45,317 nucleotides of DNA. Source: Candidatus Saccharimonadales bacterium (GTDB lineage: Bacteria > Patescibacteriota > Saccharimonadia > Saccharimonadales > JANWIN01). How positions within the stretch are numbered: the first letter of the stretch is position 1; the number at the start of each line of letters is the position of its first letter. The translations under genes and the position numbers were made by a program. Location: assembly GCA_025449905.1 (NCBI GenBank), contig JANWIN010000012.1:1-45317 (forward strand), in the 5' to 3' direction. Positions 26,656-30,599 of the stretch are shown here, in pieces. The notes beneath the pieces were generated by a model. That model had not been told where the DNA came from. It did not search any database and saw only the letters and a list, made by a program, of their open reading frames with translations.

Positions 26656-27124
26656 AATCCTCCGAATTACCGAATATTTAATTAGCGGTGGAGCTTACTT
26701 CTGGTCCGGCTATTTGGCCTTTTTTGTTGGCGATCAAATCTTAGGACTTAATCTATGGTGGGCTAAGCTGGCAGCTAATATTTTTGGCTGGGTGGTTAAC
26801 TATTTACTTCAGCGCTTCTGGGTCTTTAAAAATCCGGCTCTAGCTAAGCATAAAACGGAAGTCACTAATCGCTACATTATTATTACTCTAGCTGATTTTG
26901 TTATTGATTATTTGATAGTTAATTTCTTAAAAGGCTTAGGTATTAGTCCCTACATTGGTCAATTTGTCTCCAGCGCCTTCTTTACCCCCTGGAATTATCT
27001 TTGGTATCGCTTTTGGGTCTTTCCAGAAAAATTTGTTAAACGTCGACCGGCTCATCAGGGCCCGGCTCGGATTGCCGCTCATCGAGCCCATGGACATAGT
27101 GCTTATCACAAAATGAGGGCCTAA
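26624..27124 (+). CDS. GtrA-family membrane protein
   Basis: ISGGAYFWSGYLAFFVGDQ...NIFGWVVNYLLQRFWVFKN; start revised to ATG 26624 inside the upstream ORF end. Confidence 0.8.
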   Translation: MLKLRKKQKREILRITEYLISGGAYFWSGYLAFFVGDQILGLNLWWAKLAANIFGWVVNYLLQRFWVFKNPALAKHKTEVTNRYIIITLADFVIDYLIVNFLKGLGISPYIGQFVSSAFFTPWNYLWYRFWVFPEKFVKRRPAHQGPARIAAHRAHGHSAYHKMRA

Positions 27125-27582
27125 TGCCTAAAGAAGACGTAATACGACCAACTAAAAAACAGCGCGAACTACTTAGCTATATCGAAGAATTTATTGCCGC
27201 TAAAGGCTATAGCCCTAGCTACCGCGAGATTATGACGGCACTGAACTATAATTCGGTGGCAACAGTCGCTCTGCATATTGATAATTTAATAAAACGCGGT
27301 CATTTAGAAAAGCGTGATCACTCAGCCCGTTCACTAGAGGTTGTTGATCCTAAAACCCGAGCAGCTGTTAAAACTAACGTCGTAAGGCCGGAACAAGAAA
27401 AATGGCTGGTTGAAAAGATAACTTACTTTTTTGACCAAGCTGAACAGGGTGCCAAAACGCCGCAGGCCAAAATTGACGAACTTTATGTTTTAATTGGCAG
27501 CTTAAGAATTTTAGGACTGGAGGGTGCCGCCCAAAGCTTCATTGCTAGGCTTAGCGAGATTAAAAAGAAAGCTGGCGAATGA
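27124..27582 (+). CDS. LexA N-terminal wHTH protein lacking a recognisable S24 peptidase domain
   Basis: PTKKQRELLSYIEEFIAAKGYSPSYREIMTALNYNSVATVALHIDNLIKRGHLEKRDHSARSLEV; only 152 aa, no Ser-Lys protease region. Confidence 0.8.
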   Translation: MPKEDVIRPTKKQRELLSYIEEFIAAKGYSPSYREIMTALNYNSVATVALHIDNLIKRGHLEKRDHSARSLEVVDPKTRAAVKTNVVRPEQEKWLVEKITYFFDQAEQGAKTPQAKIDELYVLIGSLRILGLEGAAQSFIARLSEIKKKAGE

Positions 27583-28376
27583 ATATTCTGCAGGCGCTAA
27601 TTTTAGGTGTCACCCAAGGATTGACCGAATTTATTCCAGTTTCCAGTTCCGGGCATTTGGTGATTGCTCACCGGGCTATGGGCATACCAGCCGGCGGACT
27701 GACTTTTGATGTGGCTCTGCATCTGGGGACACTGATTGCTCTTATAATCTTTTTCTACCGGGATCTTTTAAGCCTGGCCTCAGCACTTTTTAAGAAGTCA
27801 GCTCAAACGCATTTAGCTTGGCTGTTAATATTGGCAACCATACCTGCGGTTATAGTTGGCGCACTACTTGAAAGTGCAGCCGAAGATCAGTTCCGTTCTA
27901 TTATTTTGGTTTCAATAAATCTGGCTGTTGTAGCAGTTATTATGCTGGCGGCCGAACACTACTATAAAAATAGCTTTAAAAAAACAAGTCTTAACAAGAC
28001 TTCAACCGGCCAAGCTATTGGTATGGGCATGGCTCAAGCGGCGGCTATTGTGCCTGGTGTTTCACGCTCCGGTGCGACAATTACGGCTGGACTATTTGCT
28101 GGCATGGACAGGGTAGCCGCGACGCGCTTTTCGTTTCTGCTGGGAATTCCGATTACTTTCGGGGCGATTATGAAAGTACTGCTTAAAAACTCGAGCCTAG
28201 AACAAATCAATGGCGAACTAGGTATTTTTATAGTCGGTATCATAGCGGCCTGTCTTACTGGACTCTGGGCAATTCGATTTTTACTGCGATATTTGGCTAA
28301 ACACCCACTAAATATTTTTGCTTATTACCGAATTGGGCTGGCGATAGTTGTATTAAGCACAGTTTTGTTTTTTTAA
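27579..28376 (+). CDS. uppP: Undecaprenyl-diphosphatase
   Basis: QALILGVTQGLTEFIPVSSSGHLVIAHR; AAAIVPGVSRSGATITAGLFAGMDRVAATRFSFLLGIPITFGA. Confidence 0.95.
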   Translation: MNILQALILGVTQGLTEFIPVSSSGHLVIAHRAMGIPAGGLTFDVALHLGTLIALIIFFYRDLLSLASALFKKSAQTHLAWLLILATIPAVIVGALLESAAEDQFRSIILVSINLAVVAVIMLAAEHYYKNSFKKTSLNKTSTGQAIGMGMAQAAAIVPGVSRSGATITAGLFAGMDRVAATRFSFLLGIPITFGAIMKVLLKNSSLEQINGELGIFIVGIIAACLTGLWAIRFLLRYLAKHPLNIFAYYRIGLAIVVLSTVLFF

Positions 28377-28400
28377 AAAATTACTACATCCAAAATAAAT

Positions 28401-28560
28401 ACGCGGTGCTATCATTAAGACTTAACATCAAAATCGCTGGAAGCAGGTGAAATTCCTGAACTGTGCCGCAACGGTTAAAGTCCGATACAGCCTAAAAGTC
28501 TCCCGAGCAGGAGCAAAAACCCGCGCGTTTTGCCCTTGCTCAAAAAGCGAGGGTTTTTAA
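28401..28560 (+). promoter_or_regulatory. Cobalamin riboswitch (compact, cobalamin-II-like) with expression platform
   Basis: GCTGGAAGCAGGTGAAATTCCTGAACTGTGCCGCAACGGTTAAAGTCCGATACAGCC: conserved GGTGAAATTCC hairpin, CCGCAAC motif, B12-box-like AGTCCGATACAGCC; closing stem AGACTT(28418-28423)/AAGTCT(28496-28501); GCTG/CAGC core helix. Confidence 0.87.
28533..28558 (+). terminator. Riboswitch-associated intrinsic terminator
   Basis: CCCTTGCT-CAAAA-AGCGAGGG-TTTTT; the 5' arm can alternatively pair in a long hairpin with GAGCAGGAGCAAAAAC (28505-28520). Confidence 0.85.
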
Positions 28561-29994
28561 TTGAACGAAACAACTGAACTAACACACCTACCTTTATCTC
28601 CAGAGCATCTGGCCAACCCTGCATACTTACCAGTTGATGCTATTCCAGAATTGGCTTCTGCTCGCTTAATAGCTCGCCGAGATGCGTATGAAATTGTGGA
28701 GCAAAATCGTCAGCACCTGAGAGATGGGGACTTTAAGGCTGTATCAATTCCTGTAGATGCACTAGGAACGGCCCGTAGAGTAACACTTAATCGCCATATA
28801 TACGGTGAGGATAGCTCACAGGCAAGGGAGTCTTTTGAGGGTCTAATTTTAGATTCCGAACGCCTCCTAGGTGAAGCAGCCAGGAAAAATACTTATGAAT
28901 ATTTTAGGCCGACTAAACAAACTCGTGATACTCAATCTGGTGATTATCTATCCCATGGTCAATCAATCTCAGTTATGACTGAAAAAGGATTAACACCTGT
29001 TGCCGAAGCTGAAGAATTAGAACGCCGAATTAACGAATATGTTGAAGAAGCGACCTACAAAGCTATAGGAGGAATGGTTATTGACGAATCAGTTACGGTC
29101 AGAACAATATCTGAATGTACAGATTGGGCAATCGAAGCACACCGGCGCAATTCGAAGGGGGGACACGGTGGCTATGTGCCGGAAATTGAGAAATTCATGG
29201 TTCGAGATGTCAAGTTTGATCCTATTACGCATGATCGATATGAAGAACAATTGGGTCTCTCTGGCATTTTTATTAATCATGAAGTTATAACTGAAACACT
29301 AAGACGTCACAACATACAAAAAGAAAATATAAGTAAAACTGAAGTGCACAGTACTCAAATGTTGGCAGATAACGATCTCGTAGATTTTGTGGCTGAACTT
29401 GACGAAGTTGCTAGTGAAGTACATGGTTTAGATATTTTTCTCGGCGAAGTTTTAACAGAGGGGCAAACCAAGGACTACAATCATGTGAGGCAAGAAGCTG
29501 AAGGTCGCAGACAAAACCTTGCTCCTAAGCCAAAAAAGTTAGCTGAATTTATTATGGGGTTAGAGCTGGAGAACACTGATGAATGGGTGGCTCTAGGACT
29601 TGTCGAAGCGCGAGTTAAAGAAATGCTGTTCGATATTGCTGGTGAAGACTACTCAGCCGCATCAATTATATTCGATCAACAAACCGCTGCAGGTTTGCAG
29701 GAAGTAGCGTACCTACGCTCAAATGGTCTTATGGAAGAAGCTCAAACGCTTTTAGCTGACGTAAAAACACAAGCGCCAGCTCCCGGCTATTGTGGCGCGG
29801 GTAGCTGCGGACTAGAATCAATTAATCAAAATAGTAACGAAGCCAAAAAAATGAAAGAACTAGGCTTAGATTCTAAAGATGCGTTGAGGGACACAGAACG
29901 ACATTGTAGGGGATGCGGTAAAAAAGAAGTGGTTTATGATCTTAAGAGTAATAAAAAAGCCTGTCTTGCTTGCAATGCAACTGCCAAATTTTAA
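28561..29994 (+). CDS. Uncharacterised 477-aa protein under riboswitch control; C-terminal Cys-rich ribbon
   Basis: TTG start immediately after the riboswitch terminator (in-frame TAA directly before, no closer ATG); C-terminus GYCGAGSCGLE...HCRGCGKKEVVYDLKSNKKACLACNATAKF. Confidence 0.85.
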   Translation: MNETTELTHLPLSPEHLANPAYLPVDAIPELASARLIARRDAYEIVEQNRQHLRDGDFKAVSIPVDALGTARRVTLNRHIYGEDSSQARESFEGLILDSERLLGEAARKNTYEYFRPTKQTRDTQSGDYLSHGQSISVMTEKGLTPVAEAEELERRINEYVEEATYKAIGGMVIDESVTVRTISECTDWAIEAHRRNSKGGHGGYVPEIEKFMVRDVKFDPITHDRYEEQLGLSGIFINHEVITETLRRHNIQKENISKTEVHSTQMLADNDLVDFVAELDEVASEVHGLDIFLGEVLTEGQTKDYNHVRQEAEGRRQNLAPKPKKLAEFIMGLELENTDEWVALGLVEARVKEMLFDIAGEDYSAASIIFDQQTAAGLQEVAYLRSNGLMEEAQTLLADVKTQAPAPGYCGAGSCGLESINQNSNEAKKMKELGLDSKDALRDTERHCRGCGKKEVVYDLKSNKKACLACNATAKF

Positions 29995-29996
29995 AT

Positions 29997-30599
29997 ATGA
30001 GTAAAATTGGGATTTTTAGCGGCAGTTTTGATCCGATCCATGGCGGGCATTTAGCTTTTGCTTTGAAAGCAGCTCAAGAAGCGAATTTAGATAAAGTTTA
30101 TTTTTTAGCTGAGCTAAAGCCACGCCGTAAAACTCATCCTACTCATTTTGCCCATCGCCAGCAATTACTAAAAATAGCCACTAAGCCATTTCCAAAACTC
30201 GGCGTTTTAGAATTGCCTGACAAAACATTTAGCACCAATAAAACCTTGCCCAGACTTAAGGCTAAATTTCAAGACGCTCAACTTTATATGCTTCTAGGCT
30301 CTGACTTAGCTAAGTATCTACCAAATTGGCCGCACATTGATTTACTTCTTGCTGACATGAAATTGATAATTGGGGTTCGAAAACTGGACAGTGTCCAAAA
30401 AGTTCAAAAAAATCTAGGCAAACTTAAAAAAGTCCCCAAAGGCTCATTAATTATTACTAGCCAGCTAAGTGATGTTTCTTCAAAACAAATTCGTGAATCG
30501 CTAAAGAAAAATAAACCTGCTCATGGCCAGCTGAAAAGCACCGAGACTTACATTAAGAAAAACTGGCTCTATTCGGCTATTTCAGCTGATAATTTATAG
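29997..30599 (+). CDS. nadD: Nicotinate-nucleotide adenylyltransferase-like
   Basis: MSKIGIFSGSFDPIHGGHLAFALKAA; MLLGSDLAKYLPNWPHIDLLL; ISSxxIR-like SSKQIRESL; 2 nt downstream of the previous stop. Confidence 0.85.
   Translation: MSKIGIFSGSFDPIHGGHLAFALKAAQEANLDKVYFLAELKPRRKTHPTHFAHRQQLLKIATKPFPKLGVLELPDKTFSTNKTLPRLKAKFQDAQLYMLLGSDLAKYLPNWPHIDLLLADMKLIIGVRKLDSVQKVQKNLGKLKKVPKGSLIITSQLSDVSSKQIRESLKKNKPAHGQLKSTETYIKKNWLYSAISADNL

Follow-up and report, generated by a model that had tools for sequence, protein, structure and literature searches.

Introduction

The metE riboswitch of Priestia megaterium represses its gene through an expression platform that has been proven by compensatory mutations: loops L5 and L13 kiss, and the antiterminator is built from the 3' half of the P13 hairpin and the terminator's 5' arm (PMC10653944). 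In Streptomyces, a B12 switch controls the ribonucleotide reductase (RNR) genes nrdABS; nrdRJ lies nearby, with nrdR placed beside the gene for the AdoCbl-dependent reductase NrdJ (PMC3293853). The AdoCbl-II riboswitches (Rfam family RF01689) are compact, have no large peripheral domain, and stand upstream of B12-uptake or RNR genes. Among cobalamin importers, ECF-CbrT is a described B12 transporter (PMC12075633). In the literature, we found no paper joining cobalamin riboswitches with Saccharibacteria or Patescibacteria.

Here, we describe an element on a 45,317-nucleotide contig of a Candidatus Saccharimonadales bacterium (hereafter the window; all features lie on the forward strand). On comparative grounds, positions 28418-28560 are predicted to hold an AdoCbl-II-type cobalamin riboswitch, an identity that comparison settles, and this riboswitch very likely represses the orphan gene downstream, P0001, and perhaps also the nadD-like gene behind it. 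With RF01689 the element shares a full-length match, all core helices, and a compact form, and its relatives likewise precede B12-uptake or RNR genes; it differs in its marginal score, in the many Saccharibacterial copies that the model misses, and in an extra, variable stem in the P6 region of several relatives. With P. megaterium metE it shares P13, the composition of the predicted antiterminator and, as proposed here, the L5-L13 kissing, whereas it combines a compact aptamer with a terminator that carries the Shine-Dalgarno sequence and an orphan target in place of metE. As in Streptomyces, a B12 switch stands on RNR genes in relatives, NrdJ depends on AdoCbl, and nrdR lies beside nrdJ, but most Saccharibacteria control the P0001 family rather than a known reductase. 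The riboswitch class and the style of its platform are thus known; what is new is the orphan P0001 family that the switch marks. The expression platform and the target gene, both missing from an earlier sequence-only reading of this DNA, are the more interesting part of the locus.

Results

The element occupies the gap 28377-28560 between uppP (27579-28376) and a 477-amino-acid open frame (28561-29994). Upstream of uppP, 27124-27582 encodes a LexA-like DNA-binding domain, in which a peptidase domain was not detected; a similar gene is found directly ahead of the riboswitch operon in L191 and apparently also in L190. The sequence-only reading had placed a cobalamin aptamer in this gap and proposed a covariance-model search for it, and Rfam cmscan indeed aligned the full RF01689 model (1-81) to 28422-28498 with 36.6 bits, against a gathering threshold of 36.5 (E = 3.8e-5 for the 45-kb window, 5.1e-7 for 601 nt and 1.3e-7 for the 633-kb genome). 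This is the sole match at the gathering threshold in the window, and the sole one in the genome. The element does not belong to class I (RF00174): the best match within the clan was RF01689, and the aptamer measures 84 nt and lacks large peripheral stems. Matches to anti-hemB, mir-548, RybB and FMN in the region all stayed under their thresholds and stem from the terminator hairpin or from loop words in common. Because the RF01689 score exceeds its threshold by just 0.1 bit, we argue the case from a comparison of relatives. The same narrow score, together with a folding-energy z-score of only -0.72, speaks for the opposing view that no functional riboswitch is present and that the sequence is either a decayed remnant or a resemblance arising by chance.

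The aptamer extends from 28418 to 28501 and is closed by P1 (28418-28423 with 28496-28501). Its core (28436-28491) comprises P3 (28436-39/28488-91), P4 (28444-47/28455-58), P5 (28462-64/28468-70; UGU/GCA), P6 (28472-74/28482-84; CGG/CCG), and the L5 loop with the sequence UGCCG. On the 3' side of the aptamer lies the P13 hairpin (28500-28513; CUCC-CGAGCA-GGAG). Covariation establishes these structures. In 36 relatives selected for a P13 with at least three of four pairs (a condition that 70 of the 74 loci with a recognisable L13 satisfy), 94% of the cells in P3-P6 and P13 pair, as against 78% after shuffling; both sides change at 13 of 19 pairs, and compensatory cells number 95 versus 22 in the shuffled set. 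The covariation score of 0.419 was reached by none of 500 shuffles (0.118), and structures slid by 1-3 columns scored at most 0.100. Helix by helix, 84% of cells pair in P3, 94% in P4, and 100% in both P5 and P6, each with changes on both sides. All sequence pieces that the sequence-only reading had named are present, although one of them plays a different part: its AACTGT-GCCGCA-ACGGTT hairpin exists as a free-energy fold, whereas the structure of the family at this place is the covariation-backed pair of P5 and P6.

All four pairs of P13 covary, through variants that include CUCC/GGAG, CUCU/AGAG, UUCC/GGAA, AUCC/GGAU, CUUC/GAAG, CUUU/AAAG and UAGC/GCUA, among others. Its loop is nearly invariant: rare variants aside, variation in CGNGCA is confined to the third base (CGAGCA, CGCGCA, CGGGCA, CGUGCA). 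L13 is complementary to UGCCG of L5 with one bulge, and the proposed bulged base is this variable third one; a bulged kissing loop has been documented for another corrinoid riboswitch (PMC10653944). We infer that L5 and L13 kiss in the window, an interaction that receives almost no support from covariation since L5 hardly varies. Two loci in which L5 has changed to CGC carry a different candidate L13. These are L042 and L046, in which the variant switch (CGC for GCC) precedes two other orphan proteins of 550 and 591 amino acids.

The kissing hairpin also appears in unusual places. In L036, L069 and L193 (one genus), as well as in L062 and L065, the leader lacks P13, and codons 1-6, AUG-NUA-GCC-GAG-CAG-CUA, contain a hairpin whose loop is that of L13, CGAGCA (or CGAGCU), so that the riboswitch's kissing hairpin seems to lie within the coding sequence of these genes. 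In 13 further loci (L024, L048, L060, L061, L066, L070, L072, L075, L080, L088, L089, L092 and L094), otherwise divergent proteins share the gene start AUGGCCGNNNNAGCC. All 13 use GCC at codon 5, while GCC makes up 28% of alanine codons, a comparison uncorrected for the relatedness of the genes; there is possibly a second L13-like hairpin at their start codon.

RF01689 matches (E <= 1e-3) occur in 98 of the 396 genomes of the Candidatus Saccharibacteria order (~25%), nearly always one per genome, and the P0001 family lies directly downstream of the switch in 64 of the 77 loci whose downstream gene was read. The remaining downstream genes include DUF4430 proteins, DUF6580 proteins, and class I NrdA. 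Conversely, the family occurs in 157 of the 396 genomes (~40%). Among 41 family genes without an Rfam match at their locus, 40 have the switch core upstream, and the single exception starts at a contig end; the count leaves aside G208, G187 and G151, which have Rfam matches, and includes the close relatives L003, L004, L006 and L010. The link between switch and family is therefore constant wherever it can be checked, and RF01689 misses many Saccharibacterial copies, which calls for a clade-specific riboswitch model. When 235 genomes were drawn from across the phylum, the P0001 family appeared only in those of the Saccharibacteria order. At one locus, L063:610-1893 (+), the switch precedes a 428-amino-acid protein with an N-terminal stretch resembling the RNR all-alpha domain and a weakly TauD-like C-terminus.

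A remnant or a chance resemblance should not have the conserved core, the covarying P13, and the constant gene linkage seen across more than 100 loci, and the window itself retains every invariant position of the core. Despite the narrow Rfam score and the unremarkable folding energy, we consider that reading scarcely credible and, on this comparative evidence, effectively refuted. The sequence-only reading, a compact cobalamin riboswitch that lacks large peripheral stems and belongs to a reduced CPR genome, is accordingly upheld by the RF01689 match, by covariation, and by relatives that bear the name Candidatus Saccharibacteria.

The sequence between P13 and the start codon suggests how cobalamin binding might be converted into gene control. 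A 5' arm (GAGCAGGAGCAAAA; 28505-28518), made up of the 3' half of P13 (GAGCAGGAG) plus CAAAA, can pair at 13 of 14 positions with a 3' arm (UUUUGCCCUUGCUC; 28528-28541), forming an antiterminator. The 3' arm overlaps the 5' arm of a second hairpin (28532-28558), whose stem spans 28532-28554 and is followed by five uridines (28554-28558). The 3' arm of this terminator contains GAGGG (28549-28553), 7 nt ahead of the TTG start at 28561, so that the hairpin would sequester the Shine-Dalgarno sequence as well. P13 (28500-28513) and the terminator stem occupy separate stretches and can form side by side; P13 and the antiterminator, in contrast, are mutually exclusive. Taken separately, the antiterminator is computed at -14.7, the terminator at -13.4, and P13 at -3.4 kcal/mol. 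When the RNA is cut at 28543, before the terminator closes, the antiterminator state reaches -27.8 versus -16.3 for the P13 state; the free energy of the whole element without ligand clearly favours neither state. Across 35 loci with a similar hairpin, antiterminator arms pair better with their own partners than with those of other loci (permutation P = 0.0014), and the window ranks first of the 35. The pairing is strong in the window and its close relatives and weak in many other loci, and the antiterminator is thus not universal.

Together, the exclusive P13 and antiterminator and the terminator with its U run reproduce, in sequence and computed energies, the platform of P. megaterium metE. 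Because that scheme is proven to repress, the element is most likely an OFF switch. In the proposed cycle, cobalamin would be bound by the four-way core, and L5 (UGCCG) would then kiss L13 (CG-A-GCA, with one bulged base) and stabilise the short P13 stem. As P13 is transcribed first, a ligand-stabilised P13 could pre-empt the antiterminator. With GAGCAGGAG locked in P13, the terminator hairpin would form, transcription would stop at the five uridines, and the GAGGG ribosome-binding site would be hidden. In the absence of cobalamin, the 3' half of P13 would instead bind the terminator's 5' arm in 13 of 14 pairs, blocking the hairpin and allowing P0001 to be made. The opposite polarity, in which ligand-stabilised P13 prevents the terminator and thereby activates the gene, has a single natural precedent of such design among corrinoid riboswitches (PMC10653944). 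There, the 3' strand of P13 is also part of the terminator, but in the window the two do not overlap and it is the antiterminator that P13 excludes, which makes an ON switch very improbable here.

A related question is whether the control is mainly translational, with P13 and the hairpin hiding the Shine-Dalgarno sequence and the U run being incidental. Some relatives do appear to work in this way: in L021, L031, L039 and L059 the sole Shine-Dalgarno sequence lies inside P13, translation starts only a few bases later, and there is no terminator, an arrangement that reads as translational control. The hairpin of the window, too, covers GAGGG 7 nt before the start. Against extending this mode to the window, roughly half of the loci, the window among them (~35 of 70, picked by eye), add a GC-rich hairpin followed directly by 4-6 uridines and the start codon, the form of an intrinsic terminator, and antiterminator pairing is strongest in the window itself. 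We therefore regard a mainly translational switch as rather unlikely at this locus and retain the OFF switch acting through the terminator.

P0001 begins at a TTG codon and carries CGAGSCGLE and CxxC...CxxC motifs towards its C-terminus. It had no family match in Pfam, NCBIfam or PHROGs, and 45 family members gave no consistent Pfam match; P0001 is itself a clear member of the family profile (E = 4e-80). Searched against PDB sequences, this profile retrieved nothing beyond a weak zinc-ribbon similarity at the C-terminus. The AlphaFold model of P0001 is confident (pLDDT 80, pTM 0.77) and had no fold match in PDB or in the viral BFVD at E <= 0.001. A viral origin found no backing, as no relatives turned up in IMG/VR with the query used and P0001 has no PHROG. 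Two nucleotides behind P0001 follows a gene for a nicotinate-nucleotide adenylyltransferase-like protein (nadD-like, 29997-30599; TIGR00482 at 108.2 bits, below the cut-off of 112.45, and PF01467), which is possibly co-transcribed; the same order of family gene and nadD recurs in G187 (L191).

The genome outside the window encodes the AdoCbl-dependent reductase NrdJ_Z (585.7 bits), the sole RNR seen, the adenosyltransferase BtuR (162 bits), and, adjoining nrdJ, its repressor NrdR (TIGR00244, 201.9 bits); PduO, DUF6580 and DUF4430 were searched for in this genome and not found. NrdJ and BtuR lend substance to the suggestion, first made from the window alone, that B12 is scavenged. Across the order, NrdJ is present in 140 of 157 family-positive genomes versus 48 of 239 others (Fisher P = 7e-45, uncorrected for phylogeny). 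An adenosyltransferase role for P0001 is unlikely, as BtuR (PF02572) is present in nearly all of these genomes, the window's own included; the PduO/EutT type (PF01923) is absent. The NrdJ tails are uniform and the C-terminal zinc-ribbon tails of P0001 relatives in the same genomes are not, and the two thus do not co-vary.

In relatives, B12-related genes (DUF4430, DUF6580, class I NrdA) also accompany the switch. The DUF4430 profile matches transcobalamin-1 (E = 3e-4), and the DUF6580 profile matches 6FNP, the ECF-CbrT transporter (E = 0.0019), from which both probably serve B12 uptake; P0001, by contrast, resembles neither. In L189, L190, L191 and L148, DUF4430/DUF6580 genes are grouped in operons that also hold the riboswitch, a P0001-family gene, or nrdJ/btuR; the DUF4430 and DUF6580 genes look like an undescribed B12-uptake system. 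Three genomes (G208, G121 and G187) show the order riboswitch, DUF4430, DUF6580, P0001-family gene, and in G249 nrdJ, DUF4430 and DUF6580 share one orientation and btuR points towards them. Few family-positive genomes have DUF6580 (4 of 51); it is more frequent among NrdJ genomes that are profile-negative for the family (6 of 22), although some of these profile-negative genomes hold divergent members, as in L048 and L051. This distribution hints that the P0001 family replaces the uptake pair.

Upstream of the aptamer, 28407-28415 holds a candidate extended -10 promoter element (TGCTATCAT), proposed from sequence recurrence: TGNTANNNT is found in the 60 nt preceding the aptamer at 51 of the 78 riboswitch loci, against a shuffled mean of 7.4. 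A 16-bp palindrome with the consensus ATACTATATCTAGCGT is also present upstream of the switch at 52 of the 78 loci, compared with 0 of 390 shuffles, a count that is partly circular because the matrix was built from 39 riboswitch sites. The regions upstream of nrdR are independent of that matrix, and there a box of the same type precedes nrdR-nrdJ in 12 of 16 genomes (boxes lie upstream of the aptamer in L001 and L012-L101, and upstream of nrdR in L233-L250). A second box is present in 13 riboswitch loci, in 11 of them 31-33 bp away, which corresponds to the 15-17 bp spacer that NrdR prefers (PMC12051234). The boxes are therefore very probably NrdR operators. Such box pairs are found in a number of relatives; in the window, positions 28280-28421 contain no recognisable NrdR box, and its own promoter thus lacks the two 16-bp boxes 15-17 bp apart that would place it in the NrdR regulon.

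Discussion

Where NrdR and the B12 switch act on one gene, the resulting logic is to express that gene during a shortage of dNTPs and cobalamin. Among relatives, both B12-uptake genes and class I NrdA are under such joint control, and P0001 could therefore be of either kind. Its role is most likely to help keep AdoCbl-dependent ribonucleotide reduction supplied. A function in the acquisition or handling of B12 is our tentative assignment, at a little under an even chance. That the family instead contributes to dNTP supply independently of B12, being turned on when AdoCbl-dependent NrdJ stalls, we think improbable, though it draws on several observations. Two relatives (L053 and L078) have class I NrdA, a reductase that works without B12, behind this switch, in parallel with Streptomyces nrdABS (PMC3293853); NrdR-type boxes stand before the switch as well as before nrdR-nrdJ; and NrdJ is the one RNR that the window's genome shows. 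On the other side, the predicted fold of P0001 is neither the RNR barrel nor any fold in PDB, the NrdR-type boxes precede B12-uptake genes too and hence do not discriminate, and in three genomes the family gene lies inside an uptake operon. Some function other than these two is unlikely, but still a real prospect.

More broadly, the family may represent either a new contributor to DNA-precursor supply that works without B12 or a new type of B12-capture protein, switched on when the cofactor of NrdJ runs short and, in many species, jointly controlled by NrdR and B12; we hold the case for this proposal to be evenly balanced. Few clues say more about the function of an orphan gene than a riboswitch, and this one yields a testable hypothesis on the supply of B12 and DNA precursors in host-dependent bacteria. 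The native platform is also a candidate for cobalamin-responsive control of expression in a phylum that still needs inducible systems (PMC11665869). For the Saccharibacteria themselves, the P0001 family points to an unrecognised part of how they cope with shortage of B12 and DNA precursors.
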